From Lysobacterales bacterium 63-13 (GTDB taxonomy: Bacteria; Pseudomonadota; Gammaproteobacteria; Xanthomonadales; Rhodanobacteraceae): a stretch of 39,451 nucleotides of DNA. The translations under genes and the position numbers were made by a program. Shown here one piece after another: positions 21,128-38,392 of this stretch. Each line of letters begins with the position of its first letter. The stretch's first letter is position 1. Where the stretch lies: contig MKWR01000035.1 of the NCBI GenBank assembly GCA_001899855.1, forward strand, positions 1 through 39,451, given 5' to 3'. The notes beneath the pieces are model-generated. The model was not told the origin of the DNA and did no database searches. It saw only the letters and a program-made list of their open reading frames with translations.

Positions 21128-22650
21128 ACCGTTCACTCAAGCGTCCTGCCCTCTGGGTCAGTGCCATTCTGGTCATTCTGACGTTGCTCGAAGGGGCCAA
21201 CTACTGGTTCGGGTTTCGACGGGCTGCCGACATGGATTCCGGCACGAGCGGCGAAAAGACCGTTCTGTATTGGTACGACCCGATGGTTCCCGACAAGCAC
21301 TTCGAGAAATCCGGGAAGTCGCCCTTCATGGACATGCAACTCGTGCCCAAATACGCGCAAACCACTGCCGCCGCCAAGGCCGAACCGATGTACTGGTACG
21401 ACCCGATGATCCCCGACAAGCATTTTGACAAGCCCGGCAAATCACCCTTCATGGACATGCAGTTGGTGCCCAAATATCCCGATGGAGCGGGTGACGATGG
21501 CGGGTCGATTCGGATAAGTCCCGCCACCTTGCAAAATCTTGGCGTGCGAACCAGCCAGGTTGAATCGGGCACCTTATCGGCCGCGGCGCACGTTCCCGGC
21601 AGCGTTGCCTGGGACCAACGATCGGCCTTCGAGATCAACGCACGCGTCGATGGTGTGGTCGATATCCTTGGCATTCGAGCGCCCTATGAAACCGTGCGCA
21701 AAGGCCAGGCGCTGGCCGAGCTGATTGCACCGGAATGGAGCGCGGCTGCGCAGGAATATCTCGAACTTGGGCGCGCCGAATCTGCCGATGCCCGTGCGTT
21801 GCGAAGCGCCGCACGCCATCGGCTGCTGGTACTGGGCATGGACGAGGGGCAGATCCGCCATTTGCGTGGAGGAAATCCTCGCGTGGTAGTGCGTGCGCCA
21901 GCCGATGGTGTCGTAAGCTCGTTACAGGTGCGCCAAGGTCAGCGGGTTCAGGCAGGCATGCCATTGATGACGATCCATGGGCTCGATACGGTCTGGGTCG
22001 AGGCGGCCATCCCGCAAGCCCAGGCGGCCGGTATCGTGCCGGGCACAGAGGTTATCGCTGAGGTTAGCGCGTTCCCTGGCGAATCGTTCCGGGGTTCGGT
22101 CGAGTCCTTGCTTCCCGATCTTGATGCGGGCACGCGAACCCAGATGGCGCGCATCGTCCTCGACAATCCCGGACACCGGCTCGCACCGGGCATGTTTGCG
22201 GACTTGCAGTTCGCAAGCGACACGCGTGATTCCCATCTCTTGATTCCTGACGGCGCTTTGATCGCTACCGGCACCGATGCGCGCGTGATTGTGGTCGTGG
22301 ACGATGGAACGTTCCGTCCCGTGCGTGTGATCGCAGGCCACTCCGCCGCCGGCAAGACGGAAATCCTCAAGGGACTGAACGTCGGTGATCGCGTGGTCGT
22401 CTCGGGACAGTTTCTGATCGACTCGGAGGCAAGCCTGTCCGGCGCGCTGGACCGCTTGTCCACACCCGACGGAGACATGGGAGGCAGCGGCAACGCCGAC
22501 GACGGCGGCATGCCCGGCATGGACATGCCGGCACCACAACAACCGCCGGCGATGGACGCGGACATGCGCAATGACGCCGACGCCATGAAGGACATGGCTG
22601 CTGATCGGAACATGCCTGGGACGTCGCAATCACAGGAGCACCCACGATGA
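21124..22650 (+). CDS. cusB: CusB-like periplasmic adaptor with two metal-binding domains
   Basis: A 508-residue membrane fusion protein. After an N-terminal membrane anchor (residues 10-25) come two tandem heavy-metal-binding domains: residues 49-77 ([12 protein letters not shown] ... [13 protein letters not shown]) and 90-118 with nearly the same sequence. Adaptor domains follow, with lipoyl halves near [15 protein letters not shown] and [14 protein letters not shown]. The tail near 455-508 is Met- and Asp-rich ([11 protein letters not shown]). CusB moves Cu(I)/Ag(I) from the periplasm to CusA through Met residues. Usual CusB proteins carry one or no such domain. The gene overlaps both neighbours by four bases. 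Confidence 0.9.
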
Positions 22651-25600
22651 TTGCGCGCATCATCCACTGGTCGATCGGCAATCGTTTCCTCGTCTTGCTG
22701 GCTGCCGCCGCCCTGGCCGTCGCTGGCGTCCTTGCCATCGAACGTACGCCCCTGGATGCACTGCCGGATCTGTCGGACACCCAGGTGATCCTGCGCACCA
22801 GTTGGCCCGGACAAGCGCCGCAGATCGTCGAGGATCAGGTCACCTATCCGCTGGCGACCACCATGATGTCGGTACCGGGAGCGACCACGGTGCGCGCCTT
22901 CTCGTTCTTCGGCGATTCGTACGTCTACGTGTTGTTCGCCGATGGCACCGATCCCTACTGGGCGCGCTCACGCGTGCTCGAATATCTGAGCCAGGTCCGC
23001 GACAAGCTGCCCGAGGGCGTGAGCCCCACGCTCGGACCGGATGCCACGGGCGTCGGCTGGATCTACGAATATGCCTTGGTCGATCGCAGCGGCCAACATG
23101 ATCTCGGTGAACTGCGTGGCTTGCAGGACTGGTTCCTGCGCTATCGGCTCAAGACCGTTCCTGACGTCGCCGAAGTCGCCAGCATCGGCGGCATGGTGCG
23201 GGCCTGGCAAGTCGTCGTCGATCCGCAGGCGCTCGCGGCGCGAGGACTGACAGTTCAGCAGGTCAAGACCGCGATCCGCGACGCCAATGGAGCCAGCGGG
23301 GGTTCGGTGATCGAGCAAGGCGAGGCCGAACTGATGGTGCGCAGTGTGGGCTACCTGGCCTCACAAGTGGAATTTGAGAGCATCCCCCTGCAGACCGGAA
23401 GAGACGGAGTGCCGGTGTTGTTGCGCGATGTCGCCCAGATTCGGCGCGGACCGACACTGCGGCGCGGGATTTCCGAGCTTGACGGTCAGGGCGAAGTCGC
23501 CGGCGGCGTCGTCATCTTGCGCTCGGGCAAGAACGCACTCACAGCGATCGATGCGGTCAAGGCGCGCCTGCAGGAGCTCAAAGCCAGTTTGCCTGAGGGC
23601 GTCGAGATCGTTCCGACCTACGACCGATCGGTCCTGATCCGCGCCGCGGTCGACAACCTGTCGCACAAGCTGATCGAGGAATTCCTGGTTGTGGCCTTGG
23701 TCTGCGCGCTGTTCCTCTGGCACCTGCGTTCATCGCTGGTCGCGGTGATCACATTGCCGCTCGGCGTGCTGGCCGCGTTCATCGTCATGCAATGGCAAGG
23801 CGTGAGTGCCAACCTGATGTCTCTGGGCGGCATCGCGATCGCCATCGGCGCGATGGTCGATGCGGCCGTGGTGATGATCGAGAACACGCACAAGCACATC
23901 GAGGCCTGGCAGTTGGCCCATGAAGATCGCGATGAGCCCAGCGCATCGGAACGCTGGGGCCTTGTTGGTGCGGCGGTGGCTGAAGTGGGCCCAGCCCTCT
24001 TTGTCAGCCTGCTCGTGATCACGCTTTCGTTCCTGCCGGTGTTTGCATTGGGTGCGCAGGAGGGACGGCTGTTCAAGCCCTTGGCCTACACCAAGACCTA
24101 CGCCATGGCTGCCGCCGCGGGGCTGTCGATCACCTTGATCCCGGTTTTGATGGGTTATCTGGTGCGTGGCCGCATTCGGTCCGAGCACGCCAATCCGGTC
24201 AATCGTGCGTTGACCGCGGTGTATCGGCCTGCACTAGGCTGGGTCTTGAAAGCACCAAAAATGGTGCTGTTGGCCGCCGGGATCGTGCTGGTTTCGGCGG
24301 TGTTGCCATGGAGCCGCTTGGGCAGTGAATTCATGCCGCCGTTGAATGAAGGGACGCTCCTGTACATGCCCACCGCGCTGCCCAGTCTCTCTGCAGGCAA
24401 GGCTTCCCAGCTTCTGCAACTGACCGACCGGATGCTCAAGACCGTACCCGAAGTCGAGCATGTCTTCGGCAAGGCTGGGCGCGCCGATTCGGCCACCGAT
24501 CCCGCACCCTTGACCATGTTCGAAACCACGATCACTTTCAAACCAAAGGCGCAGTGGCGTGCCGGGATGACGATCGAAAAGCTCAAAGGTGAGCTTGATG
24601 CCGCTGTGAGGGTGCCCGGTCTGACCAATCTGTTTGTCTACCCGATCCGCAACCGCATCGACATGCTCGCGACCGGCATCAAGAGTCCAATCGGCATCAA
24701 GGTACTGGGTCCGGATACCCGCCGACTGGAGCAATTGGCATCGCAGATCGAAGCGGTGGCCAAGGCGGTCCCCGGGGTGAGTTCGGTGATCTCGGATCGC
24801 GCTGCAGGGGGACGATACGTCGATATCACCGTGCGGCGAGACGCTGCGGCCCGATATGGCCTGACACAGGCCGCCGTGCAGTCCTTGCTGGCCATGACCG
24901 TAGGCGGGGCACCGATCGACCAGACGGTCGAGGGCCTTGAGCGCTACCCGATTGTGTTGCGTTATCCACGAATCCAACGCGATTCACTGTCTGCGCTTCG
25001 CGAGATGCCGATCGTCACCGCCAATGGCAGCCAGATCACCCTTGGGCAGGTAGCGGATATCGGTCTCAGCGGAGGTCCGCCGATGCTTAAGAGCGAAAAC
25101 GGGCAGCTGGCGACGTATGTCTACGTCGATACGTCGAACTCCGATCTTGTCGCACAAGTCGAAGCGATCCGGCAGGCGGTGGCTGCAAAACTTGACCTGC
25201 CCGCTGGCTACACGTTGGCCTGGTCGGGCCAGTTCGAGTATCTGCAACATGCCTTGGAGCGATTGCGCCTTGTGGTGCCGGCAACGCTTGGCATCGTTTT
25301 CCTGCTGATTTATCTGGTGTTCCGCCGGGTCGACGATGCATTGATCATCATGCTCAGCCTCCCGCTTGCGCTGGTGGGCGGGCTTTGGCTGATCTGGCTG
25401 CTCGGGCATTCGATCTCGGTGGCGACCCTGATCGGATTTATCGCGCTTGCCGGCGTGGCAGCGGAATTCGGCATCATCATGCTGCTGTACTTGTGGCACG
25501 CGTGGGAAAGACAACTCGCGATAAACCCCGCTGCGGGCGATGCAGAACTCGATATCGCAATTCGCGAAGGTGCTCTCCAGCGTGTGCGGCCCAAAGCCAT

Positions 25601-25811
25601 GACGATCGCTGTCATCCTGGCAGGCCTGCTTCCAATCATGATCGGGACCGGAGCAGGCTCGGAAGTCATGCAGCGCATTGCCGCACCCATGGTCGGTGGC
25701 ATGATCACGGCTCCCCTGTTGTCGATGCTCGTTATTCCAGCGGCGTTCCGGCTATCGCGCCGCCGCGACCTTGCGCGACGTGCCCAACACAATTTGAAAG
25801 CCATGACATGA
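22647..25811 (+). CDS. cusA: CusA-like Cu/Ag RND efflux pump
   Basis: A 1054-residue inner-membrane proton antiporter. The relay motif [19 protein letters not shown] is the monovalent-metal (Cu/Ag) type. Met residues that form the CusA metal site can be placed: [19 protein letters not shown] and [12 protein letters not shown]. FPLxx-like [15 protein letters not shown] and a C-terminal [16 protein letters not shown] are family marks. It begins inside the cusB stop (ATGA), so the two are translationally coupled. Substrate Cu(I)/Ag(I) is inferred from these motifs. Confidence 0.94.
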
Positions 25812-26141: not shown

Positions 26142-26741
26142 TCATGGAAAGTGACCTCGCGCAAGATTGCCCAGCCAAATTTCGAATTCCGCCACAGTGT
26201 CGAACGGAAAATCCGCGATCTGTGTCGCCCGAAATGTGGCCAGTTGCGCGGTATTTCGTTCGAGGCCGTTGTAGCCGAACTCCCTCGTCCCGGTGGCGGC
26301 TAGCGCGGACATCCACGCGATCACGTGGCCAACATCTGCTTCGAGGTGAGCCGCGGTGAGCTTCTGTCCTGTGAGCTGCCCATGCAGGATCTTATTTCGG
26401 TACCGATGGATGCGACTGATCTCCGGGGATAACTGCGCATGTGCGACACCGATAAGGTCGGCCTCAGTACATCGTGCGAGGCGCACGATGCCTGATAGGA
26501 ACGTGCTGGGGTAGAGCTGGCGGTTGGCGAGGATCGCTCTGTTGATCGCGCTCTGCGCTAGCATGTCCAGACCGAAATGTTGCTGGACGAGAAAGCTAAA
26601 AAGTCGACGGGTCTGCTTTTCGTACTTCACCCAGGTAAGGATCAGCGCGTCGACGCGGCGGGTCGACGCCTGTAACTCCCAGATAGCTTGTACGGTTGCG
26701 AATTCGCCTTTTAAGGGATCAGGAATGGTGAGTGTGCCCAT
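26142..26741 (-). CDS. HEPN-like helical protein, unknown function
   Basis: A 199-residue protein that looks all-helical. The motif R-N-K-I-L-H-G at residues 115-121 fits R-x4-H, the catalytic motif of HEPN ribonucleases in defence and toxin systems. The segment is HRYRNKILHGQL, with the glycine after the His that is common there. The ATG at 26741 has AGGAGA four bases upstream. It lies 196 bases after the E1-like gene, same strand. It may be an effector or a passenger. The rest of the protein is not recognised, so the HEPN call is tentative. Confidence 0.55.
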   Translation of the reverse strand: MGTLTIPDPLKGEFATVQAIWELQASTRRVDALILTWVKYEKQTRRLFSFLVQQHFGLDMLAQSAINRAILANRQLYPSTFLSGIVRLARCTEADLIGVAHAQLSPEISRIHRYRNKILHGQLTGQKLTAAHLEADVGHVIAWMSALAATGTREFGYNGLERNTAQLATFRATQIADFPFDTVAEFEIWLGNLARGHFP

Positions 26742-26937: not shown

Positions 26938-28302
26938 TCATTTGTTGACATCAATGAACGCACATCGCGTGCTTGGAGATGTCGTCGGCGCACCCAGCCG
27001 ATGTGACAGAGATTGCATCTGGAGGTCGAGGCTGACGTGTGTGCCACCCCCGTGCAGGGGTCGTACGAGCTCCGCAATGACCAAGCTCGCGGCGACTGCG
27101 CCCACGAACGGCGTGGCCACCGCCTTGGTGGCGAGCATCGTCACTCCGCACAAATCGCCGCTGTCGTGCGCGAGCTGTTGGTAGGCCTCATTGAGCGTGG
27201 CGACCCCTTGGCTTGCCGCCTGTGCAGGCCACAGCTCGCTGGCCGGCCGCGGTCCGGGCAAGGTATGCATCCGCAGGCTGCGGAAGTCGCGGTAACCGCT
27301 GCCCAAACCGGCCTCGATCACCAGCGCGAATGCGGCCGTGTCGAGGTCGCGCCTCGCGGCGATGTTGTCTACGCCAAACAAGGCGACCGTCGGTTCACCT
27401 TGCTGCAGGCGGTGGTGTGCGCCGAACCGGCGTTCAACGAGCTCGATGTCAAAGCCGATCGCCTCCAGGCGGCGCGCCACCACGCGGGTCTTGCGCACCT
27501 TGAGATCGTCGGCACCCACCAGAAGGCAGGTACTCAGGTTCGACGTGGTAACCCGGTCCACGTCTTGGAGCACGAGGCGGGGGCGTCGATCCTGCGGATA
27601 CGGCAGCATTCCTAGGACCCATGCGTAGGCTTGGCCTAGATGTCCTACCCCGACCAGCCACAGGTCGTTGGGCAAGTACGCAAGTCGAGGACCTCGCCAT
27701 TCGGGCGACTGCCAGTCGGCGACCGCCAACGGATTCCACAAGGACAGGCCGATTCGGCGGTGGCCTGCCTCGAGTGAGTCTCCGCGTACGTGCGAGAACG
27801 CTTCGCTCACCGCTAATGCGCCGGCGCAAACGCCCGCCAGGGGATTGTCATCGCTCGTGGTCAGATGGCCGCCGCTGCCGACGGGGGCGATTTGCGCGCA
27901 CCAGCCATCCCACGTCGGTCGAATGGCGAACGTGGCGCTGGACGGAACCGCACCGTCCCCGATGAGCAGCGACGGAACGTGCGGGGTCGGGGCGTCGACC
28001 ACCGTGCCGCCCAGTTGCTGCACAACCTGCGCCGTGGGCAGGCCGGCGAACAGGGGCAACCGAAGGAGGGGGGCGAGGTCGCCATCCACCTCCACGCGGC
28101 CAAGGAATGCTCGGGACGCGGTGCTAAGCGCCGTTACGAAGCACGCTTGGCCGGCAAGGGTGTCCGCCCAGCCCGTGCCCAAGTGGATTCGCACGCGATA
28201 CTGCTGGAAGAGGGCAAGCGCCGCTTCGGGCGTAGTGGCTTCGCCGGCATCGAGCGCCAGCTTGGCCAGGCGGTGCATCGAGTCGGAATCGAACTGGTTC
28301 AT
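26938..28302 (-). CDS. E1-like (ThiF-fold) activating enzyme of a ubiquitin-like system
   Basis: A 454-residue protein. Residues 1-205 are an extra N-terminal domain I do not recognise. The ThiF/E1 fold follows: nucleotide loop LWLVGVGHLGQAY (G-x-G-x-x-G at 218-223), LVLQDVDRVTTSNLS with aspartates 247 and 249 and S-N-L at 254-256, and lysines near 268-271. FGVDNIAARRDL near 309 is typical. Cys 385 in GDLCGVTML is the likely thioester cysteine. It would adenylate the C-terminus of the ubiquitin-like protein and pass it to the E2-like protein. The start overlaps the JAMM gene stop (ATGA). It is the last gene of the operon. Confidence 0.85.
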   Translation of the reverse strand: MNQFDSDSMHRLAKLALDAGEATTPEAALALFQQYRVRIHLGTGWADTLAGQACFVTALSTASRAFLGRVEVDGDLAPLLRLPLFAGLPTAQVVQQLGGTVVDAPTPHVPSLLIGDGAVPSSATFAIRPTWDGWCAQIAPVGSGGHLTTSDDNPLAGVCAGALAVSEAFSHVRGDSLEAGHRRIGLSLWNPLAVADWQSPEWRGPRLAYLPNDLWLVGVGHLGQAYAWVLGMLPYPQDRRPRLVLQDVDRVTTSNLSTCLLVGADDLKVRKTRVVARRLEAIGFDIELVERRFGAHHRLQQGEPTVALFGVDNIAARRDLDTAAFALVIEAGLGSGYRDFRSLRMHTLPGPRPASELWPAQAASQGVATLNEAYQQLAHDSGDLCGVTMLATKAVATPFVGAVAASLVIAELVRPLHGGGTHVSLDLQMQSLSHRLGAPTTSPSTRCAFIDVNK

Positions 28303-28790
28303 GCAGTGTCCTCTGCCGCAGCGAACGTAATGAGCGTGGTGACAGGCGGGCCGCGAAAGCGCTGCCAGCGATGAGCACCCTGGTACAGATACAGGCCGAC
28401 ATCTTCGAGGTGCACGGGCCCTTGGGCGAAGTGGGGAACGATGAGTGCAAGGTGACCGGCGATTGCGAGCATCGGGTTCTCGCTGTCGCTGCGGCTCTGT
28501 CCGGCCCCGTAACGATGGGTGTGCACGTCGGCCACCACATCGAGGTCGTGGTCGGCGCAGTAGGCCCACAGCCGACCGAAACTGGCGGCGGACAAGTGCA
28601 CGAAGTCCGCCTGCAGGGCGTCGTGCTGCAGCTGTTCGTACGGAAGGAAGTGGGTCGCGACACGCCGATCGCGCTGCACCTTGCCCAGCAGAAAGCCGCC
28701 GCTCTCGCGCACCCCCGCACCCTGCTGGCGAAGATGCGCGAGGGTCGCTTGCCACAACGCAGGGGAGAGCTCAAGCAGCGGCGCTGACAT
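28299..28790 (-). CDS. JAMM/MPN-type metalloprotease, probable deconjugase
   Basis: A 163-residue single-domain protein. The zinc motif is complete: Glu 29 in RESGGFLLG, His 90 and His 92 in DVVADVHTHRYG, and Ser 99 and Asp 102 in QSRSDSENP (H-x-H ... S-x-x-D). Such proteins remove ubiquitin-like tags from targets or process precursors, as BilD and Cap3 do. It begins 20 bases before the E2-like stop and ends in the E1-like start, so the operon is tightly packed. ATG 28790 was chosen as the start because the preceding in-frame sequence is shadowed by the E2-like gene. Confidence 0.87.
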   Translation of the reverse strand: MSAPLLELSPALWQATLAHLRQQGAGVRESGGFLLGKVQRDRRVATHFLPYEQLQHDALQADFVHLSAASFGRLWAYCADHDLDVVADVHTHRYGAGQSRSDSENPMLAIAGHLALIVPHFAQGPVHLEDVGLYLYQGAHRWQRFRGPPVTTLITFAAAEDTA

Positions 28791-29241
28791 GGTCGTGGCC
28801 TTGCAAGAGGTCGTGGACGACTTCCAGGTAGTGCGAGATCCCCTTCGCCGGTTTCCAGATGAGCTGGGGATACTGAGACAGCCATGCATCGTGACCGACC
28901 AGGCTCTCCCGGTCGCAGGGCAGGTACAGGGCATGTCCGTTCTTCCACTCAGGCCTGAAGGCCAGGCGCATGCACTCGCCACCGGTGGGCCAGCGTGCAG
29001 CGGCCAGGTGACAATCGCCTTCGAGGTCCCAGAAGCCGCCGGTCGGCGCAATAGCCGGGAAGCCTTTGCAGTTGAGCCGGAGCACGAACTCCTGCCCGTC
29101 GGGTGCGAAGACGCCCACGAAGACAAACGGCCAGTCGACCCGGTGAAATCGCCAGCGCCCCCGATCCTGGCCCGACAGGAAGCGCGCCGACGCGAGGTCG
29201 GCGCGCAAGGACAGCTCATCCGGCGATACCTGCGCGGCCAT
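28771..29241 (-). CDS. E2-like conjugating protein (tentative)
   Basis: A 156-residue protein between the ubiquitin-like and JAMM genes, where Bil-type operons have their E2. Features that fit an E2 fold are a beta-strand set (WPFVFVGVFAPDG, EFVLRLNCKG), a Pro-rich turn (FPAIAPTGGFWD), and a Cys followed by a helix and Trp: ALYLPCDRESLVGHDAW with Cys 109, then LIWKPAKGISHYL. The proposed active Cys and His cannot be proved by eye. Its ATG at 29241 overlaps the ubiquitin-like stop (TGATG). It would take the activated protein from the E1-like enzyme. Confidence 0.7.
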   Translation of the reverse strand: MAAQVSPDELSLRADLASARFLSGQDRGRWRFHRVDWPFVFVGVFAPDGQEFVLRLNCKGFPAIAPTGGFWDLEGDCHLAAARWPTGGECMRLAFRPEWKNGHALYLPCDRESLVGHDAWLSQYPQLIWKPAKGISHYLEVVHDLLQGHDHVSAAA

Positions 29242-29747
29242 CAGCCGTTGATCCGGTGTGCAGGCACCAGGTCGAACACGATGGAGCAGTTGGGGTGCTG
29301 CACCAGGGCACCAACGTGGGTGTCCATGTCCGGCTGCTCGTTGGAGCCGGCGATCTGCAAGACGTGCTCAGCGATGTCGCCGGCCTTCATGCCGAACTGG
29401 CGCCCAGCCCACTGACGAATGCGACCGATCGTCGTCGCAGGGCGGAAGCGGTGTTCCTCCGTGCGCCCCCCAAAACGAACCCCGACCGTCACGTGCTTGC
29501 AGCGATGCAAGTGGACGCGCACGCCGTGGCCCTGGTTCAGGTCCTTGACACGTCGAGGCGACGGGGCGTCCTCGTCGTCCGCGTCATCGTCCTCGACGGA
29601 AAGCGAAAGCTCTAAGGCGTCGGTGCCAGGCGGCAGCAGGGCAAGGGCGGCGCGCTTGAGATCGGCGATGGTGGCGTGGCCGTCGATCTCGACCAGCTTG
29701 ATGTCGGAAAAGTGCTCCGACTGCACATAGACACGGGTACTGGACAT
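29241..29747 (-). CDS. Two-lobed ubiquitin-like protein (BilA-like)
   Basis: A 168-residue protein with two beta-grasp-like halves. The first is about residues 4-82 (RVYVQSEHFSDIKLVEIDG, helix ATIADLKRAALALLP), the second about 83-163 (HVTVGVRFGGRTEEHRF, helix TTIGRIRQWAGRQFG, strand NCSIVFDLVPA). The halves are joined by an acidic linker (VEDDDADDEDAP). It ends ...HRING, so a C-terminal Gly is exposed with no tail, but the residue before is Asn, not Gly. A two-domain ubiquitin-like protein is the feature for which Bil systems were likened to ISG15. AAGGAG lies nine bases before the ATG, and a bipartite promoter-like site 54 bases before. Confidence 0.78.
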   Translation of the reverse strand: MSSTRVYVQSEHFSDIKLVEIDGHATIADLKRAALALLPPGTDALELSLSVEDDDADDEDAPSPRRVKDLNQGHGVRVHLHRCKHVTVGVRFGGRTEEHRFRPATTIGRIRQWAGRQFGMKAGDIAEHVLQIAGSNEQPDMDTHVGALVQHPNCSIVFDLVPAHRING

Positions 29748-29800: not shown

Positions 29801-29831
29801 GTAAGTCGCAGTGAATCCCAAAAATCGGAAA
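29801..29831 (-). promoter_or_regulatory. Bipartite promoter/operator site B, upstream of the conjugation operon
   Basis: On the minus strand: TTTCCGATTT, 11 bases, TGCGACTTAC. Both blocks and the spacing are identical to site A at 34558-34588, while the spacer differs. It lies in the gap between the helicase stop (29850) and the ubiquitin-like ATG (29747), 54 bases before that ATG. A short imperfect hairpin (29772-29792) lies between the site and the ATG. The sigma-like factor encoded in the same cluster is the best candidate to read it. Confidence 0.8.
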
Positions 29832-29849: not shown

Positions 29850-32800
29850 CTACGCAGGGCAGTACAGGAAGTGCCGGCATCCCGGGCACACCCACGAACT
29901 GGGCGCCGCGCTGAACTGACCGACCGATAGTGCCTGCGCGAAGTGCGTCAAGTTGAAGTCCGGAACCAGATGCCCATACGCCACGACGGGCTCAGTCTGG
30001 CGTGTGCTCAGAACATGCAAGCTGCCTTGGAAGCGCAGCGGCGGGTACGCCTCATTGAGATGTTTGAGCACCCATCGGATGGCCTTGTGCTGCTTGGCCA
30101 GTGGGCTGGACGGCTGCGCGCGCACAAAGTGCAAGGTAACCGCATTGCCTTGGCGCGTGATGCGGTGTGAAATCACACGAATGGGTAGCCCGTCGCACAC
30201 CACGTCAACCGGGGGCGCCACCGCCACGCGGTCGGCGCCGGACCAGGCGCGTCCGGCCTGCAAGAGCTGGTCGGCGTACGCCCGAAGGTGCGGCCTGGTC
30301 ACCTCATAGTCCTCGGGAAGCCTGCTCAGTTCGAGTTTCACGTCGTTCACCGGCGTCGAAACCTCGCCTCCGTGCGGCACGAAAAGCTCGCGCAAGACCG
30401 CGGACTCGATGCGTACGGCCGGATGCAATCCCGCCGCTGGCGTCAGCTGCCTCACTTCGTCGTAGTAGTAGCGACGAGGACACGTGCGGTACGTCACGAA
30501 CTCCTTCAAGCCCACGGGCAAGGAGGGCCCTTGTGCGGTCCGGTGCGTGGTGCTGGTGGTGTCGGCCTGGACCCGCGTGCCGACGACACGATCAAGCAAG
30601 TGAGAGGCGCGCTGCACCGTAGGCGTGCACGCCGCCTTGTAGTAGCTCTTCTCCTCGTACAAGGTCAGATGCGAGCGCGCACGCGACAGGGCGACATAGA
30701 GCTTGTTTGACGCCTCGGACTTGGCTTCGTCCACGCCGCCGGCCGTCTGCGTAAACGCAGCGGGAAGCCAGGCTGCGTCGTCGGACCGCTCGAAGTGGCG
30801 GGCGTCGACGTCCATCAGGTGAACGGCTTCAAACTCCAGTCCTTTGCTCTGGTGGATCGTCATCACGGCCACCGCCTCCAGCCGCTCGGCTTCCGGCGGC
30901 GGAATGCGCAGATCGCGGTCCTCCGCCAGACGCAAGCGCCGGCGCAGCCGGGTCAGGAATGTGCCCACGGTCTGGTAGGCGCGGCCACCGTCAGGAACGC
31001 GCAAGTAGTAGATGATCTGCCAAAGCGCGAGTCGTCGCGTCACCGCTTGCAAGTCGTCGCCCGCTTCGTATGCCCCGAGCCATCCGGTGCGATCGAACAG
31101 CACCGTGCACGCGACGTCCCAAGGCGAGTCGCGTGCGCTCAATCCAGCAAAGGTTTCGCGCCACCGCTGCAACGCAACTACGCCCGCGACGGACAGGCCG
31201 ATCGGCGGAGCGGTGAGCCAAGATAAGGGCTCGGGGCGGGTACGTCGAAGATGGGCAAGCAGAAGGTCCAGGTCTTCGGCGGGCAGGGCCAATCCCGGCA
31301 ATTGCGCGATCCGCACGAGCGCACTTCCCGAGCGATCGACAAACAATTGCAGCAGCGCCAGCAGGTCTTTCACCTCCGGGCGTTGAAAGATGTCGCCCAG
31401 ATGCAACACCGGAATGCCGGCGGCCACCAAGGCCGCCGCCGCGGCATCGCAGGTGTCGTGCCTGCTGGCCAGGATCACCTGGTCGCGATAGGCGACGCCT
31501 TGGGCCTGCAGCCCGCGCACACGCGAGACCAGCTCGCCATGGGCGATGCTCGGGTCATCGCAGCTCACAAGTGTCGGACGCAGCCCGCCTTGGCCCCTGA
31601 TCGGCGCGACGCCGTCCAGCGGAAGCACGCCCTGCAGCGGATTGTCGTCGCGGCCAGTGTGCTCCACGAGCCGAACGATCTCCTCGAAGCTGCGCCAGTT
31701 GCCGTTGAGTCGAAACACGCGGTGCTTGGGAAAATCATCCTCGAAGCGAACGATGTTGCGCATTGATGCGCCGCGAAAGCGGTAGATCGCCTGGCGCGGA
31801 TCGCCCACCACCCACAGGCTGTCGGCGTTGGCCGCGAGCGCCTTCACCAGCTCGGCGCTGGCGCGGTTCACGTCCTGGTATTCATCGACCAACATGTGTC
31901 GGAATCGTCCGACACTGGGCAAGAATTCGCCCATCCCCGCGCCCAGCGCTCGGGCGGGCAGCATGATGAGGTCACCAAAGTCGACGAGCCCGCCATGGGC
32001 CCGCAACAGTGACTCGTAGTGGCGGTAAAGCGTGGCTACGTCGCGCTCTCTGGCGAGCCGGTCCGCGTCACTGCGAGCGGCGCTGTCTTCCACCATCGTG
32101 CCGAACGCCTCGGCATCCAGCAGTTCGTCCTTGGCGCGCTGGGTCGTCTTGACCACCTGATCCAGCCAGGGCAGCGGATCGCCCAATGGGTTGAACGACC
32201 GCAGGGGCAGGCCGTAGATATGCGGTTCGAGGAGGGCGATCTGCGCCATCTTGTCCGCCACGCCGAACTCGGGGCGCAGCCCGAATCGTTCATGGTTCTT
32301 GCGGAGGAATTCCAGCCCGAAGGCGTGAAAGGTCCCCACCCACATTTCATGCGCGCCAGGCACCCCTGCGGCCTCGAGGCGGTCGACCAACTCTCGCGCG
32401 GCGCGGTTGGAAAACGTCAGGACCAGCAGTTCTGCTGGCATGGTGCCGTTAGCCAGCAGGTGCTCAATGCGCATGAGCAAGGTGGCGGTTTTGCCGGTAC
32501 CCGGTCCGGCGACGACAAGGGAGGTCCGCGCATCCGAGCGCGCGGCATCGCGTTGCTCGATCGTCGGGGACAGCGCTGGCTCCGGCGATTCCTCCGAGAT
32601 GGCGTCGTGCGGCAGTAGGACAGCATCCAACAGCTGCTGGCGAACCAGTTCGAGTGGCAGTTCGAGCTCCGCGGCAATTTGGCCCGCCGTCCGACCGGCA
32701 TCGAACAGGGCGCGCGCCAGAGCGTGGGGCAACAGAAGGTCCCGCGCGAAGAGGTTGGCTTGCAGCTCGGCCCGCTCACGAGCGCCGTACGCTTCGACGC

Positions 32801-33164
32801 GCTTGGCGCCGAGGGTGTCGTCCTCGGCCGGATTCAGGTGGCTGACGATGACTTTCCGGCAGCCCTCCTGCTCTTCAGGGTGCAGCACCCAGTGCCCGAA
32901 CTCGTGCGCCACCAGAAAGGCCCGCTCTGGTACGTCCACGTCATCGCGGACAATGATTTGGCGAAAGGCGCGGACCAGCACTGCGTCGGCTCCGCTCAAC
33001 GCTGAATCGTCCGGCCGCGCCAGCGTGATATCAAAATCCTCGGCGTCCACCGCGGCAATGCACGCGATCAGGTCGCTGGAGCGAATGCCGGTTGGCGTGG
33101 CTTCGCCGCAGTGCCGCTCGCGCAACTGCTGCGCCGCTAGCCGCGCTTGCCGAAACGGTGTCAA
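29850..33164 (-). CDS. ImmA/IrrE metallopeptidase fused to a UvrD-family helicase with C-terminal Fe-S cysteines
   Basis: A 1104-residue fusion. The N-terminal domain (1-150) has the zinc motif H-E-F-G-H at 87-91 and ERAELQANLFA with the third ligand near 133, as in ImmA/IrrE repressor-cleaving peptidases. The helicase follows: Walker A GPGTGKT at 220-226, MLVDEYQDVNRAS, WVVGDPRQAIYRFRG, MTIHQSKGLEFE and KLYVALSRARSHL. The C-terminal part has one Cys in TCPRRYYYDE and C-x2-C-x5-C in CPGCRHFLYC, the AddB/Cas4 Fe-S layout. The nuclease site between them looks degenerate, without a clear D...E-x-K. It overlaps the HTH gene (ATGA). It may sense damaged or foreign DNA and cut the adjacent regulator. 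Confidence 0.88.
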   Translation of the reverse strand: MTPFRQARLAAQQLRERHCGEATPTGIRSSDLIACIAAVDAEDFDITLARPDDSALSGADAVLVRAFRQIIVRDDVDVPERAFLVAHEFGHWVLHPEEQEGCRKVIVSHLNPAEDDTLGAKRVEAYGARERAELQANLFARDLLLPHALARALFDAGRTAGQIAAELELPLELVRQQLLDAVLLPHDAISEESPEPALSPTIEQRDAARSDARTSLVVAGPGTGKTATLLMRIEHLLANGTMPAELLVLTFSNRAARELVDRLEAAGVPGAHEMWVGTFHAFGLEFLRKNHERFGLRPEFGVADKMAQIALLEPHIYGLPLRSFNPLGDPLPWLDQVVKTTQRAKDELLDAEAFGTMVEDSAARSDADRLARERDVATLYRHYESLLRAHGGLVDFGDLIMLPARALGAGMGEFLPSVGRFRHMLVDEYQDVNRASAELVKALAANADSLWVVGDPRQAIYRFRGASMRNIVRFEDDFPKHRVFRLNGNWRSFEEIVRLVEHTGRDDNPLQGVLPLDGVAPIRGQGGLRPTLVSCDDPSIAHGELVSRVRGLQAQGVAYRDQVILASRHDTCDAAAAALVAAGIPVLHLGDIFQRPEVKDLLALLQLFVDRSGSALVRIAQLPGLALPAEDLDLLLAHLRRTRPEPLSWLTAPPIGLSVAGVVALQRWRETFAGLSARDSPWDVACTVLFDRTGWLGAYEAGDDLQAVTRRLALWQIIYYLRVPDGGRAYQTVGTFLTRLRRRLRLAEDRDLRIPPPEAERLEAVAVMTIHQSKGLEFEAVHLMDVDARHFERSDDAAWLPAAFTQTAGGVDEAKSEASNKLYVALSRARSHLTLYEEKSYYKAACTPTVQRASHLLDRVVGTRVQADTTSTTHRTAQGPSLPVGLKEFVTYRTCPRRYYYDEVRQLTPAAGLHPAVRIESAVLRELFVPHGGEVSTPVNDVKLELSRLPEDYEVTRPHLRAYADQLLQAGRAWSGADRVAVAPPVDVVCDGLPIRVISHRITRQGNAVTLHFVRAQPSSPLAKQHKAIRWVLKHLNEAYPPLRFQGSLHVLSTRQTEPVVAYGHLVPDFNLTHFAQALSVGQFSAAPSSWVCPGCRHFLYCPA

Positions 33165-33781
33165 GACGGGCGGCCCCGATCCTGCATCGCGCGCAGCCGG
33201 GCCTTTTCTGCCTCGTCAACGGCGAGCGCACTGATCGCGTCCTCCCACGACTCGCCGGCGGTCATGGTCGGCTTGTCCGCAGCTTTGTAGCTGCGATGCA
33301 ACGCCACCTGGGGCCCCAGTTCTTCCGAAAGCAATGTCACTGTGACATTCAAGAACTGCGCGAGTCGGTCCAGCACCGCCCGAGGCGGATCGATGATCAT
33401 CCGCGTCAGAATTTTGCTTAGAAGCACCGTCGAGCCCACACCAGTCGCCTGTGCGGCCGACCTGAGGCGTTGCCCGGCCAGCGCCCCAATCGCCTTGCGA
33501 ACCGCGTCAGCGCCCTCCAGGACGGGCGGGGCATACAGTTGATTGAGCACGCGGCTCTGCAGGCGCATGACGGAAGCGTCGGAAACCTCCAGTTCGGACT
33601 CGGCCGGTTCGGGCAGGGCGTCTTGCGCCATCCAGAGCGCGGAGAACTCCAAGATCTCCTCGCGATACTCCGCGTGCGCTTGACAGGCTTGGACGATCAT
33701 CTCGGGCGTCGGCGCGTTGTCTTGCTGAAACAACGCGTCCAACACGTCCTCGAGCGAGGGATTACGGTTGGGCGAAGTCAT
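33161..33781 (-). CDS. HTH regulator, possible target of the metallopeptidase
   Basis: A 206-residue soluble protein. Residues 100-155 look like an XRE-type helix-turn-helix: LRSAAQATGVGSTVLLSKIL, then DPPRAVLDRLAQFLNV. The N-terminal half is helical and acidic (EDVLDALFQQDN, AEYREEILEFSALW), which could bind the sigma-like protein. The C-terminal tail is charged. Gene pairs of an XRE repressor and an ImmA/IrrE peptidase are known (ImmR-ImmA, DdrO-IrrE), where the peptidase destroys the repressor. It overlaps both neighbours by four bases. It could instead be an anti-sigma factor. Confidence 0.65.
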   Translation of the reverse strand: MTSPNRNPSLEDVLDALFQQDNAPTPEMIVQACQAHAEYREEILEFSALWMAQDALPEPAESELEVSDASVMRLQSRVLNQLYAPPVLEGADAVRKAIGALAGQRLRSAAQATGVGSTVLLSKILTRMIIDPPRAVLDRLAQFLNVTVTLLSEELGPQVALHRSYKAADKPTMTAGESWEDAISALAVDEAEKARLRAMQDRGRPS

Positions 33782-34509
33782 ATGTTGAACTCCTTGTTAA
33801 TCTTGTCTTTGATGCTTCTTTCGTAGTTGTTGATGGTGCGCGGGTTGACGCCGAGTGCTGCGGCGATGTCCTTGATCTTCATCTGTTGGCGCCACAACAT
33901 CACGAAGACCGAATACTCCTTGCGCGTGAGCAGGGTCTGCAGGAGAGCATGGAACTGCTCGAACTCCCGCGAGTGGCCAAGGGCCACATCCGGCGTCCAT
34001 TCGTCCTGCAAAGCGGTGTCCCCGTCGCCGCCGTCCTCGTCGCTGCCTTCGTATTCGCGCTCCGCTTGGTGCCATTCTTCGAGGCTTTCCATCCGCGAGC
34101 GACATTGCGCCAGGATCGAGCGCAAGAACGAGATCGACTGGTTCTTGAAAAAGACGCCGAACCGGCGCGCGGCGAACTGCGCGTTCTTGTCCTTGAGCAG
34201 GCGTTCCCATACGTACGCGGACAACTCGTGGGCGGCCTCGTCGATGTGGGAAAAATGCTGGGGGACCAAGCTGTTCTTGAGTGCGAACGACCGGGAGCGC
34301 CGCAATATCCGCCGCGATAGCGCGCTGCTGAACAGCCCAACGCGGGTCGTGCTCCCCGCGGCCCGAGCGACCTGGAACTGTCGTACGAGCTGCTCCTCGC
34401 GGATGAAAAGCGGATCGTCCCAGTCTGCGCAACTCAGGCGCTCGACCAGTTCCCGGTCCGCCAAGTTGTCCAGATTTTCTGTTTCAGATGTGTCCATCGC
34501 GTCGTCCAT
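33778..34509 (-). CDS. Sigma-70-like (ECF-type) transcription factor
   Basis: A 243-residue protein from ATG 34509. Region 2 is suggested by DEAAHELSAYVWERLLKD and FGVFFKNQSISFLRSIL. Region 4 is a clear helix-turn-helix: LLTRKEYSVFVMLWRQQ, then MKIKDIAAALGVNPRTINNY. The linker is very acidic. It lacks a region 1 or 3, as ECF factors do, though it is longer than most. Its own promoter-like site A lies about 50 bases upstream. The stop overlaps the start of the HTH gene. A later ATG at 34497 is also possible. A DNA-binding regulator other than a sigma factor is not excluded. Confidence 0.7.
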   Translation of the reverse strand: MDDAMDTSETENLDNLADRELVERLSCADWDDPLFIREEQLVRQFQVARAAGSTTRVGLFSSALSRRILRRSRSFALKNSLVPQHFSHIDEAAHELSAYVWERLLKDKNAQFAARRFGVFFKNQSISFLRSILAQCRSRMESLEEWHQAEREYEGSDEDGGDGDTALQDEWTPDVALGHSREFEQFHALLQTLLTRKEYSVFVMLWRQQMKIKDIAAALGVNPRTINNYERSIKDKINKEFNI

Positions 34510-34557: not shown

Positions 34558-34588
34558 GTAAGTCGCAGGCCGCGACACAAATCGGAAA
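34558..34588 (-). promoter_or_regulatory. Bipartite promoter/operator site A, upstream of the sigma-like gene
   Basis: On the minus strand: TTTCCGATTT, 11 bases, TGCGACTTAC. It is 49 bases before the ATG at 34509. Site B at 29801-29831 has the same two blocks and spacing. Placement before the sigma-like gene suggests self-control. Confidence 0.8.
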
Positions 34589-35010: not shown

Positions 35011-37209
35011 TCATGGGCTGCCACCCACAGGAACCTGCACCTCGACAGGCAAGGTCTGGAGGACCGGGAATTCCGTCTGGATCCGCGTCATGAGATCGAC
35101 GACCCCTGGGGCCTGCAGCGTCACGATCAGCGCGTAGGGCATAGGCACGGCGTCTTCCGTGCGGACCGCTTCACTCTCGTCGCGCACCTGGTAGTTGATG
35201 TGGAAGTAGGGCGATTCCAGCTCGTCGGCATTGACCGTGCAAGAGTTGTTCAACACGGTGTCCCAGCGCATGGCGTCGCGACGCAGTTCTTCTTCGGACT
35301 TGTACATGCCGGTGCCGAACAGGGGCAGGCTGTTGCCCGGCGCCTTGTAGCAGCGCACCCACAGTCCCGCCCGCGTGTAATTGATTGCGTGGGCCGAATC
35401 GACCGGCGCGCGGTAACAGAACGTCGCGCCAATGCGCACCTTGGTGCCGGGAGGCAGACCTTTTGGCACGGGGATCAACGCCTTTTGCGGATGACCAGGA
35501 CGCGTGATGCCCTGGTATACCACGCGCACGACATCGAGCGGTGTATACAAAATCCCCTCCGGATCGAGAGGAATTCGCCCCCAGCCCACATCCGCTCGCT
35601 TGTGACTGCGCCGGTACTCGGCCGCGTTGATCAGCAGGGCCTGCAGCGTGATCGGGGCAAAGCGCGACTGACTGAGAACGTCGATTCCCACCGCAGTGCG
35701 CAGGGCCAAGGGGCTCGCAAAGCTGGTGCCACCCACGGCAACGACGCCACCGGCCAACGGGCTGTACACCGGCAAGGGCTCCCCGTTGGATCCTCCGAAG
35801 GCAACCACATCAGGTTTCACAAAGCCCGGACTGCGCCCGGGTCCGGTGGCGCTGTACGGGGCGCGATTCCATTTCTTTCGGCGGGTGTCAGCTGCGCCGA
35901 TCGCAAACACGTTCACGGCGTCGCCCGGGGGCTGGATGCGGCCGAGCTCTCCGCCCAGCGCACCGTTGTTACCGATGGCCGCCGTACACAACGTGCTCCC
36001 ATCAGCGAGTTCGGTGTCCAGTCGCGAAGTCCACTCGTGGATGTCGTCATCAAAGAAGGTAGCCACAGGGCCGAGGCTGATGTTGGCGAAGCGGTAGGGG
36101 CGACCCGCGGTGCGGGCACTGCGCAAGGCAGTGACGATGCGATCGAGCACGTCGAGGGCCTGCTCCGGGCTGTCCGTCGTGGGCAGCACGCGATGGTGCT
36201 CGACCGCCCACGGTGGCGTGGGCAATATCCCTTGCTTTGGGTCGACCGGACCAAACAGCAGCGCGGAGGTGACGTTGACTCCATGGGTCAGGTCGCCGAC
36301 GGCGGCCGGTGGCAAACCTGAAGCGGCCAGTTCGACCACGTGACTACCAAACGCTTGCGCGGTACCGCCGTCGAACACCGCCACGCGCGGCCCGTGCGGG
36401 GTCGGCATCGGCGCCGGCAAGCTCAACTTGGGATACGAACGGCCCAAGGCTGCCGTTAGATCGAGTTCCTCGCGCAGGCGCGGCATCGAGCGCACCAGCC
36501 GGATGCGTTCGAAACGAGCGAGCTCCGGCACCTGCGCTGCGGGCAACTGCACGGCCACGAAGGCCAGCCCGGGGACGAAGCGGAAGCCCCTCAGACTGAT
36601 TTCACCGCCGAGCTGCAGCACCAGCGTCTGGAACGCGGCGAGGATGTCGGCGTCGTTTTCTCCTGCGTGCAAGGTGACGTGCACGAAATTCGGCCATGGA
36701 GTTTCGGTGTCCAGCCGCAGCTTGGCGTTGCTTGCATAGGCGTGAATCGACTCGATGTGGGTGAACTCTTCCTGGCGGCCTTTACCGATCGCCGGATCCT
36801 GGAGGTAGCGATCCATCACCTCAAACTCCTCTGGCGTTCCTGCCACCAGAATTTCGGCGGTGTCCTGCGCCCCCGGCTTGCCACCTTGGCTGATCCGTGG
36901 CGTGACGCGGGTCGTTCGCGAACCCAGGATGGTCAAACCCGCGTCGCGGAGGATGTGGGCGGGGAAGTGGGTTTTCGCAAGAAAGGTGGGATGAAGGGTT
37001 AGTTGCGCCGTAATCTCACCACGGGGGGAAAATCTACGGGACACTGCTCGCGCCGCGCCGGCGACGGCGGCCAACTGAGGATGCAATGTCTCGCGCGCAT
37101 CTGCGATTGAGTAGGGGTGCCACTTCGGTCCGCCCCCCTGGGGCCACGACAAGGAACCGATGAGTTCTTGCCCGTTGGCTATCAGCACGTTCCGAGGGGT
37201 TGCGGCCAT
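35011..37209 (-). CDS. Subtilisin-like (S8) serine protease paired with an AAA+ ATPase
   Basis: A 732-residue protein without a signal peptide, so probably cytosolic. Residues 1-260 are an extra N-terminal domain. The protease core carries the triad: Asp 280 in RVAVFDGG, His 309 in GDLTHGVNV, Ser 496 in GGTSFASP, with the oxyanion Asn in AAIGNNG near 414. A C-terminal beta domain (510-732) follows. The ATG at 37209 has AGGAGA six bases upstream and lies ten bases after the ATPase stop. Pairs of AAA+ ATPase and subtilase are found in accessory regions of many bacteria. It may kill the cell or degrade phage proteins when released. Confidence 0.9.
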   Translation of the reverse strand: MAATPRNVLIANGQELIGSLSWPQGGGPKWHPYSIADARETLHPQLAAVAGAARAVSRRFSPRGEITAQLTLHPTFLAKTHFPAHILRDAGLTILGSRTTRVTPRISQGGKPGAQDTAEILVAGTPEEFEVMDRYLQDPAIGKGRQEEFTHIESIHAYASNAKLRLDTETPWPNFVHVTLHAGENDADILAAFQTLVLQLGGEISLRGFRFVPGLAFVAVQLPAAQVPELARFERIRLVRSMPRLREELDLTAALGRSYPKLSLPAPMPTPHGPRVAVFDGGTAQAFGSHVVELAASGLPPAAVGDLTHGVNVTSALLFGPVDPKQGILPTPPWAVEHHRVLPTTDSPEQALDVLDRIVTALRSARTAGRPYRFANISLGPVATFFDDDIHEWTSRLDTELADGSTLCTAAIGNNGALGGELGRIQPPGDAVNVFAIGAADTRRKKWNRAPYSATGPGRSPGFVKPDVVAFGGSNGEPLPVYSPLAGGVVAVGGTSFASPLALRTAVGIDVLSQSRFAPITLQALLINAAEYRRSHKRADVGWGRIPLDPEGILYTPLDVVRVVYQGITRPGHPQKALIPVPKGLPPGTKVRIGATFCYRAPVDSAHAINYTRAGLWVRCYKAPGNSLPLFGTGMYKSEEELRRDAMRWDTVLNNSCTVNADELESPYFHINYQVRDESEAVRTEDAVPMPYALIVTLQAPGVVDLMTRIQTEFPVLQTLPVEVQVPVGGSP

Positions 37210-37219
37210 GCGAATTCTC

Positions 37220-38311
37220 CTACTTGTGCAGCCAGCGTGAGACGGTGGCGGCGCTCACGCCAACATGCTTAGCGATTGCGCGTGTAGACAAGCCATCGGC
37301 ATGTAGGCGTTTGACCAGCAGCCATCGCTCACTTTCGGCTGGATCGGTCGCACTAGGCAGTGCCAATCGAATCAATACGTCGTCCAGCTCGCCGCCGTTG
37401 ATGGCGATTTCGCGCCGCGCCCGGGTCACCAGCCGACTCGCGTCTGAGAGCGGCTTTCCGGCGAATGCCGGCGCGATCTGCCGGGAGACTGCGTGGCCGG
37501 CCCCCAAGTTGGAAAGCAAAGCCTCAACCTGACGGGTCGTGCTGTCGGGGAAGCGCAGCCAGATATCAAAACGGCGAAAGACGGCGCGATCTAGCAGTTC
37601 CTCGTGATTGGTGGCCGCCACAAGCAACGATGTCCCTGGCCATTCGTCGATGGCTTGCAGCAGCACGTTGACGACGCGCTTGAGCTCGCCAACGTCTTGG
37701 CCGTCGTCCCGTCGCTTGGCCAAGGCGTCGAATTCATCTAACAACAAGACGCACGGCTGAACCTTGGCATGAACCAGCACGCGGGTGAGGTTGGTGCCGG
37801 TCTTGCCAAGCAGACTGTTGACGGCGGCCGCAAGGTTGAGCGTGATCAAGGGGAAGTTCAGCTGTTCGGCAAGATAGGTCGCGGCGAGGGTTTTGCCGAC
37901 GCCAGGTGGTCCGGATAGCAAGACGGTGCGAGAGGGCGACAGGCCCGCTTCACGCAGACGATCGGCATGCCGCCATTCATTCACCAGGCCGCCCAGGATT
38001 TCGTCGACCTTTGGAGGCCACACGGGCTCGTGCTCAAGAAAGGCGGGAAACTGTATTGAGGTCAAGGCGAGGTTGCTGTCGGAGTCGACGGGGCTGACCA
38101 ATGCTTGCTGAGCCGCGCCGTCGCGTGCGAGCGTCAGGCGAGAACTGTTTGCCTCGGTTAGCGCTCTAGCTAGCAAAGGTGTCAAGGCAGACTTCTCTCG
38201 CCGCAAGCGGGCAATCAATCGGCTCAAGCGCAACTGGAACGCAGCAGCGTTGCCGGCGCAACCCTCCCGGACAAGCGCCAACCATTCGGCCTCGGAAGAT
38301 GGTATCGACAT
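37220..38311 (-). CDS. AAA+ ATPase with C-terminal helix-turn-helix
   Basis: A 363-residue protein from ATG 38311, preceded by GAAGG. Walker A GPPGVGKT is near 134-141 and Walker B VLLLDEFDALAKRR near 188. Sensor and arginine-finger-like residues follow (LLVAATNHEELLDRAVFRRFD), as in classic AAA proteins. The last 30 residues are a helix-turn-helix: LHADGLSTRAIAKHVGVSAA, then TVSRWLHK. It would control the adjacent subtilase, its own gene, or both. Other in-frame starts upstream (38329, 38368) lie within or beyond the repeat site, so they are less likely. Confidence 0.88.
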   Translation of the reverse strand: MSIPSSEAEWLALVREGCAGNAAAFQLRLSRLIARLRREKSALTPLLARALTEANSSRLTLARDGAAQQALVSPVDSDSNLALTSIQFPAFLEHEPVWPPKVDEILGGLVNEWRHADRLREAGLSPSRTVLLSGPPGVGKTLAATYLAEQLNFPLITLNLAAAVNSLLGKTGTNLTRVLVHAKVQPCVLLLDEFDALAKRRDDGQDVGELKRVVNVLLQAIDEWPGTSLLVAATNHEELLDRAVFRRFDIWLRFPDSTTRQVEALLSNLGAGHAVSRQIAPAFAGKPLSDASRLVTRARREIAINGGELDDVLIRLALPSATDPAESERWLLVKRLHADGLSTRAIAKHVGVSAATVSRWLHK

Positions 38312-38321
38312 GGGAGCCTTC

Positions 38322-38362
38322 TGTTTCATGTGTTGCACAGTGTTGCATGTCATTATGAAACA
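38322..38362. promoter_or_regulatory. Repeat-rich control site upstream of the AAA+ gene
   Basis: TGTTTCAT (38322-38329) and ATGAAACA (38355-38362) form an inverted repeat around two direct repeats of GTGTTGCA (38330-38337 and 38340-38347, ten bases apart). This looks like an operator with iteron-like direct repeats. The HTH tail of the ATPase is the obvious candidate to bind it. It covers the likely promoter of the AAA+-subtilase operon. Confidence 0.7.
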
Positions 38363-38392
38363 GCGCAAGAGCCCCTCGAGGTGCCTACCGGG

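Follow-up and report, generated by a model that had tools for sequence, protein, structure and literature searches.

The four-gene Bil (bacterial ISG15-like) systems conjugate the ubiquitin-like protein BilA to structural parts of phages, as published for members other than the one described here. CapP is a protease of the M78 type, and in the IrrE/DdrO pair DNA damage sets an M78 protease against a protein of the XRE type. Controllers of immune operons named in the available part of PMC13373217 are CapH+CapP, CapW and CapK+CapS. The first of these, a small DNA-binding protein and a cleaving protease, is found according to the same part beside Bub, CBASS (cyclic oligonucleotide-based antiphage signaling system) and other immune operons; single-stranded DNA activates the protease, which cleaves the repressor. 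CapK+CapS are reported there beside five Bil operons. Multi-ubiquitin operons (polyUbl, class 6e), which associate ubiquitin-like (Ubl) and E1 genes, are described in the portion available of Iyer et al. 2006 (PMC1779556). The window analysed here is the whole stretch of 39,451 nucleotides from contig MKWR01000035.1 of Lysobacterales bacterium 63-13. It hosts a seven-gene unit, in which a Bil operon is preceded by what is probably a dedicated control cassette, made of three genes denominated SigL, G2 and HEL. An earlier, sequence-only reading ended at the edge of the operon, and mentioned neither the upstream cassette (34578-29850) nor two promoter-like sites.

The same bipartite element is found before SigL, hence before G2 and HEL, and before bilA. 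This suggests that SigL activates both itself and the Bil operon, and we consider it likely, on the basis of the DNA sequence, that SigL drives the operon and its own cassette from a shared promoter-like element. The motif was first seen in HEL-Ubl gaps set side by side, as TTTCCGRTTT with a box resembling GCGAYT 10-12 nt further on. The scan of the window for TTTCCGATTT-N11-TGCGACTTA found two occurrences, one before bilA (29802..29831, minus strand) and one before SigL (34559..34588, minus strand), vs 0.01 expected. These two sites are also the sole matches in the whole 3.75-Mb genome when up to 3 mismatches are allowed, and the reversed motif, used as control, had 0 matches. The longest open reading frame (ORF) of SigL extends to 34578, so that its upstream end falls within the SigL-side site; SigL thus probably starts at the ATG at 34509, downstream of the site.

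A position weight matrix (PWM) was trained on the 22 gaps, out of 26 loci, in which a loosely defined pattern was found; the four loci without it are L076-L079. On both strands of 37 loci (1.08 Mb) the PWM gave 53 hits of at least 18 bits, 50 of which fall at three expected places: 28 in the gap (22 being the training sites), 9 before SigL and 13 inside the SigL 3' end. Of the 3 hits located elsewhere, one is found in L053, ahead of another multi-ubiquitin operon. Gap hits were found in 28/37 loci, both sites in 20/37, and a gap hit was present in 6 of the 15 loci outside the training. No site reaching 18 bits was found in the Bil loci that have no SigL in the examined stretch (L045, L046, L095, L096, L098). 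L004, at a contig end, entered the motif scan alone, and L002 entered no motif test. The SigL-internal sites lie about 135-215 nt before G2. The second site is inside the SigL coding end, instead of ahead of the gene, in L053, L055-L057, L068, L070, L072, L080, L081, L089, L090 and L093, and likewise in the Bil locus L060, the other such loci being mostly multi-ubiquitin; G2 and HEL may accordingly be switched on there independently of SigL.

The two regions were also compared by a test blind to the motif, in which the best pair of 9+7-nt boxes of like spacing, one in the gap and one in the SigL region, is evaluated against dinucleotide shuffles. Twelve of 22 loci had p ≤0.0133 (Fisher 4e-15), as did 8 of the 15 loci left after removal of seven near-duplicates (Fisher 1.2e-9), and nine further loci, including those with a divergent SigL (L091, L092, L094), had p ≤0.01 in 9/9 cases (Fisher 4e-13). 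Two points detract from these figures: Fisher values are only indicative, because related loci are not independent, and the motifs of most loci in the nine-locus set were already known to us when the pairing test was run. In L092 the longest SigL ORF begins 119 nt before the best pair, which might or might not be upstream of the true start. As control, the five Bil loci lacking SigL gave 0.97; L097, one of six Bil loci with no HEL or SigL beside them, is outside this control. Left out of the 22-locus set were L041, L042, L043 and L060 (SigL upstream region not covered), L054, L055 and L076 (insertion sequence, IS, elements) and L082 (divergent). Of these, L055 entered the nine-locus set, and the pairing tests were run without L054 and L082.

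SigL-internal sites overlap conserved codons, and a synonymous recoding test was therefore made, with the HEL codon use of each locus, or with that of bilD for L044. Site scores exceed those of the recodings over 15 loci (Fisher 4e-22) and over 10 dereplicated ones (8e-15), L069 alone being weak (0.09). No signal emerged from nine comparison loci having the second site elsewhere (0.71). On the strength of this test we reject coding constraint as an origin of the SigL-internal motif.

SigL, G2 and HEL, with order and orientation as in the window, precede Bil on a Xanthomonas plasmid, on a Variovorax plasmid, in Zoogloea and in Pseudoxanthomonas, and a Dokdonella metagenome-assembled genome (L002) features the same seven genes as the window. 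HEL of L002 (3141-6453) is split in two overlapping ORFs in different frames, which may be an assembly error or real. The cassette is also found before multi-ubiquitin operons in M. huakuii, R. beringeri, Cereibacter, Klebsiella, one E. coli chromosome, Agrobacterium and a Leptolyngbya plasmid, the Ubl of which was recognised. An IS separates cassette and multi-ubiquitin operon in A. johnsonii, and in Robbsia (L082) the multi-ubiquitin operon is divergent from the cassette. The gene at the SigL position is annotated short in Klebsiella and E. coli; in the latter species HEL was matched in 2/5426 genomes, and the neighbourhood was examined in one. The gap between HEL and the Ubl start is mostly of about 60-130 bp, and of about 30 in L072 and L090; it measures 102 bp before bilA in the window.

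The association was also approached from G2, by a profile (A1) made of 13 rows that come from loci found via BilD or HEL similarity, and hence not fully blind. Searches of 398, 385 and 369 genomes gave 6, 4 and 1 new matches outside this genome. In 10 of these 11 cases G2 is followed by HEL and then directly by Ubl and E1 genes, recognised by similarity to reference proteins; the ten credible matches comprise eight multi-ubiquitin and two Bil loci, and SigL was recognised in 10/10. The 11th match (G873, E 6e-4) was judged false, since no further cassette gene was recognised within 16 kb. The window G2, used alone as query at the family level (233 genomes), added three matches, G390, G564 and G459; that of G564 (L087) is found with Bil.

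BilD matched 37 plasmid records, 19 of which were examined, having been picked in part for HEL matches, and HEL lies directly upstream in 12/19 (L041-L043, L058-L060, L075-L079, L094). In the Cupriavidus locus L044 no HEL adjoins SigL and G2, and both promoter-like sites are present nonetheless. In L046, L095 and L098 genes for a helix-turn-helix (HTH) protein and an ImmA/IrrE protein adjoin bilA in place of the cassette, so that the slot looks regulatory, and an XRE regulator is found beside Bil in L096. Neither cassette genes nor HTH and ImmA/IrrE genes or an XRE regulator were found in the examined stretch of L045 and L097. Judging from these gene neighbourhoods, different regulators seem to replace one another at a single position beside Bil. 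A search of the BilD family over the class (212/369 genomes) was dropped for counting, as it mostly reflects the ThiF domain (model positions about 205-320). The Phages collection held no match to BilD, and the Viral_contigs collection no relative of query P0004.

The reading of SigL (33778..34509, minus strand) as a sigma-70/extracytoplasmic function (ECF)-like factor is favoured by its similarities. Both sigma70-ECF (NCBIfam TIGR02937) and the region 4 family Sigma70_r4_2 (Pfam) are matched with E ≤0.1 in 9/9 aligned SigL proteins; the best members reach 5e-12 and 2.6e-8, respectively, and the window protein 3.3e-8 and 0.0032. Compared with PDB sequences, the family profile has FliA at the top (3.6e-8) and also matches an ECF factor (1.8e-4), with which it aligns over positions 57-250. 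The AlphaFold model, built from three sequences, features two helical domains and a disordered linker between them. By titles or chains, the best 50 of 299 Foldseek matches are sigma factors or RNA polymerase entries, among them RPSH, RPSD and RPSB, which are sigma factors. A possible sigma region 2 is indicated by the ECF profile and by fold similarity. G2 (33161..33781, minus strand) is a protein of 206 aa with a weak XRE-like HTH and, by the C-terminus, a SYKSxxKP-like motif conserved in the alignment of relatives; its HTH_31 and Xre-like-HTH matches are weak and under cut-offs. HEL (29850..33164, minus strand) combines an IrrE-type (M78) protease, a UvrD helicase and a C-terminal region (Pfam UvrD 4.5e-57, Peptidase_M78 7.4e-11). 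No variation was seen across 13 sequences in the M78 HExGH, in the Walker A and DExQD motifs or in four cysteines of the C-terminal region. The C-terminal nuclease-like motif looks degenerate, reading RxVRTG where active relatives have DYKTG. PADLOC matches of HEL to GajB and RTasHel are taken to reflect generic UvrD similarity.

These components may be arranged in a regulatory chain. SigL would be held in check by G2 in the resting cell; DNA generated by phage or damage would engage the UvrD motor of HEL and activate the fused IrrE-type protease, which would destroy G2 as CapP cleaves CapH. Freed SigL would then cause SigL, HEL and the Bil proteins to be made in a burst, and structural proteins of the phage would receive BilA by conjugation. 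In other bacteria, multi-ubiquitin operons would be under the control of the same cassette. The upper steps, restraint of SigL by G2 and destruction of G2 by DNA-activated HEL, are drawn by analogy and are quite possible, though held with some reserve. The complete picture, in which bacterial Ubl immunity would be switched on by a dedicated sigma factor firing, once HEL has destroyed G2, a promoter of its own that the cassette has in common with Bil or multi-ubiquitin operons, is advanced tentatively, as falling somewhat short of probable. With equal caution, its range might extend from Pseudomonadota to a cyanobacterial plasmid.

Several observations weigh against SigL being a sigma factor held by an anti-sigma partner. 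The window protein scores 33.3 bits with TIGR02937, for which the cut-off is 42.9, and is under the cut-off of Sigma70_r4_2 as well; GerE, a LuxR-type HTH, alone exceeds its Pfam cut-off (24.7 vs 23.5 bits); SigL could accordingly be an activator. Response regulators too are found among its PDB profile matches, via the HTH. The structure model has a pLDDT of 68.5 and TM-scores to sigma factors of 0.22-0.27, and one Foldseek match has E ≤0.001. As for G2, no family was above cut-off in the family scans and no anti-sigma family was recognised, and its structure model (pLDDT 50) was set aside as unusable. The element might then be an operator, at which G2 represses or SigL acts as a LuxR-like activator, SigL being no true sigma factor. 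The GerE match, the HTH matches of G2 and the 20-22 nt spacing, which suits two half-sites as well, all fit such an explanation, as does the control by a repressor in CapH+CapP (PMC13373217, available part). We hold it nonetheless to be unlikely, because GerE was matched in 2/9 aligned SigL members vs 9/9 for the two sigma models, and because the divergent SigL loci L091 and L094 carry motifs that are divergent yet paired (the best pair of L092 being elsewhere). In addition L088, the locus of G459, has HEL and a G2-like domain, no recognised SigL, and no site above 13 bits.

Control of Ubl operons by SigL has to be weighed also against the loci that do not conform. A gap site of at least 18 bits is absent in 9/37 loci (L054, L076-L079, L082, L090-L092) and in L094 as well, and the divergent Robbsia L082 is without any site of at least 14; several loci without the gap site show paired variants. 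Pairing fails in L052, L069, L071 and L080 (p >0.5), and p is 0.05-0.12 in L053, L057, L058, L070 and L079. Two loci, Aquincola L051 and L055 of P. koreensis, have the cassette with no Ubl annotated in the examined stretch; in P. koreensis HEL is followed by an IS66 element, and Aquincola keeps the gene that follows bilD in Zoogloea, so that Bil was probably lost there. L088, in which no Ubl was recognised either, and the Bil loci without an adjacent HEL (L044-L046, L095-L098) could suggest that HEL, with G2 and SigL, is a separate defence system that travels along in defence islands and exerts no control on Ubl operons. Against this stand the order, orientation and short pre-Ubl gap, constant in the 10 credible profile hits, and the pairing of motifs between gap and SigL, which make a mere co-traveller very unlikely. 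An ordinary Bil operon devoid of special regulation, with the motif due to coincidence or coding constraint, is hardly credible. Four-gene Bil operons have been described as sufficient for defence, and conserved sigma codons, (Y/F)R..L..AI, do overlap the SigL-internal sites; coincidence is nonetheless opposed by the restriction of the motif to two sites in 3.75 Mb and by the nine further loci, all at p ≤0.01, and coding constraint by the recoding test.

The identity of the four genes downstream, all on the minus strand, is supported throughout. The genes bilA (29241..29747, 168 aa, ubiquitin-like), bilB (28771..29241, 156 aa, E2-like), bilC (28299..28790, 163 aa, JAMM protease) and bilD (26938..28302, 454 aa, E1-like) overlap by 1, 20 and 4 nt, and match PADLOC BilA (9.1e-56, residues 1-168), BilB (1.2e-59), BilC (2.1e-58) and BilD (9.5e-173) models, which cover all four proteins almost end to end. 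The gene order is that of Bil systems. The sequence-only reading had recognised an operon of overlapping Ubl, E2-like, JAMM and E1-like genes matching Bil anti-phage systems by parts; profiles, order and catalytic residues agree with it. On the basis of these matches, the genes almost certainly form a standard Bil conjugation operon, with BilA as tag, BilB as E2, BilC as JAMM isopeptidase and BilD as E1. Taken as Bil alone, the operon is ordinary, another example of a known system.

Residue conservation was counted on alignments of 13-14 sequences that include the window protein. The full zinc motif and the E1 cysteine noted earlier are both confirmed: E29, H90, H92, S99 and D102 of BilC are present in 13/13 sequences, and Cys385 of BilD (DxCG), a protein with a Pfam ThiF match (1.4e-8), is kept in 14/14. 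We infer that Cys385 is the E1 catalytic cysteine. BilC has one significant match among PDB sequences, the solved BilC (8tyx, 3e-7), and its Prok-JAB match is under the Pfam cut-off (22 vs 25 bits). In BilB (Pfam DUF7665, 2.4e-69) Cys109, the presumed E2 catalytic cysteine, is found in 11/14 sequences, the window included, and His117 in 14/14. The BilB proteins of L046, L060 and L076 have no cysteine at the Cys109 position, and the BilD cysteine is retained in these loci; they may use a different E2 residue or have an inactive E2. BilA has no Pfam match at E 1, and a two-lobed beta-grasp fold is suggested for it by the full-length BilA profile match. The protein terminates in ...RING, so that the C-terminal glycine is already exposed; its relatives in L043, L058 and L075 bear an extension.

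Other genes flank the unit. An IetAS-like pair adjoins the cassette (35011-39427, minus strand), and consists of an S8 subtilase matching PADLOC IetS (2.9e-32) and an AAA ATPase with HTH; a phage-type integrase comes next. S8 peptidase genes follow Bil in the Cupriavidus locus L044. At the other side, bilD is followed by an ORF of 199 aa (26142-26741, minus strand) with no family match above cut-off, and a large protein judged by eye to be a resistance-nodulation-division (RND)-type efflux protein (22647-25811, plus strand) borders the defence genes.

Among the papers listed by the literature search, none on a sigma factor or an IrrE-helicase cassette beside Ubl operons was found; the search did not extend to the main Bil papers, and priority is thus not certain. 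In PMC13373217 'sigma factor' occurs 12 times, as anti-sigma factors where seen, and 'helicase' never; both terms are absent from the main text of PMC1779556. The data suggest that two different bacterial Ubl systems share one regulatory input. They offer a concrete promoter sequence, and with it a prediction of when Ubl systems turn on; if the reading is true, a sigma-factor type joins the known controllers of immune operons.

Compared with known systems, the window shares with Bil all four proteins, their order and their catalytic residues, and the cassette stands outside the four defining genes. BilA ends directly in Gly, and BilB has PCDRxxxxxH, not the C-x5-E-x-H-x4-H spacing derived for the structurally studied BilB from residues given in the available part of PMC11354881. 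The earlier exclusion of CBASS for want of a CD-NTase agrees with the scan, which speaks against type II CBASS: no CD-NTase model is among the PADLOC matches listed for ten window proteins (for HEL, the best 25 of 54), the rest of the window not being scanned. Ubl and E1 operons of the polyUbl class 6e kind follow the same cassette in other genomes. The unit resembles ECF sigma regulons in having a sigma-like protein and a bipartite element before both its own gene and the target operon; differences are G2, with no recognised anti-sigma family, and the -10-like GCGATTA, which looks more like that of sigma-28. From IrrE/DdrO the cassette differs by the helicase fusion and the sigma-like factor. 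G2 and HEL resemble CapH+CapP, as a small protein and a protease encoded beside a Ubl immune operon; here, however, the M78 protease is fused to a UvrD helicase rather than encoded by a separate gene, and the HTH match of the small protein is weak. To the scheme of CapH+CapP and the other controllers the cassette adds a sigma-like protein and one promoter-like element placed before both units.

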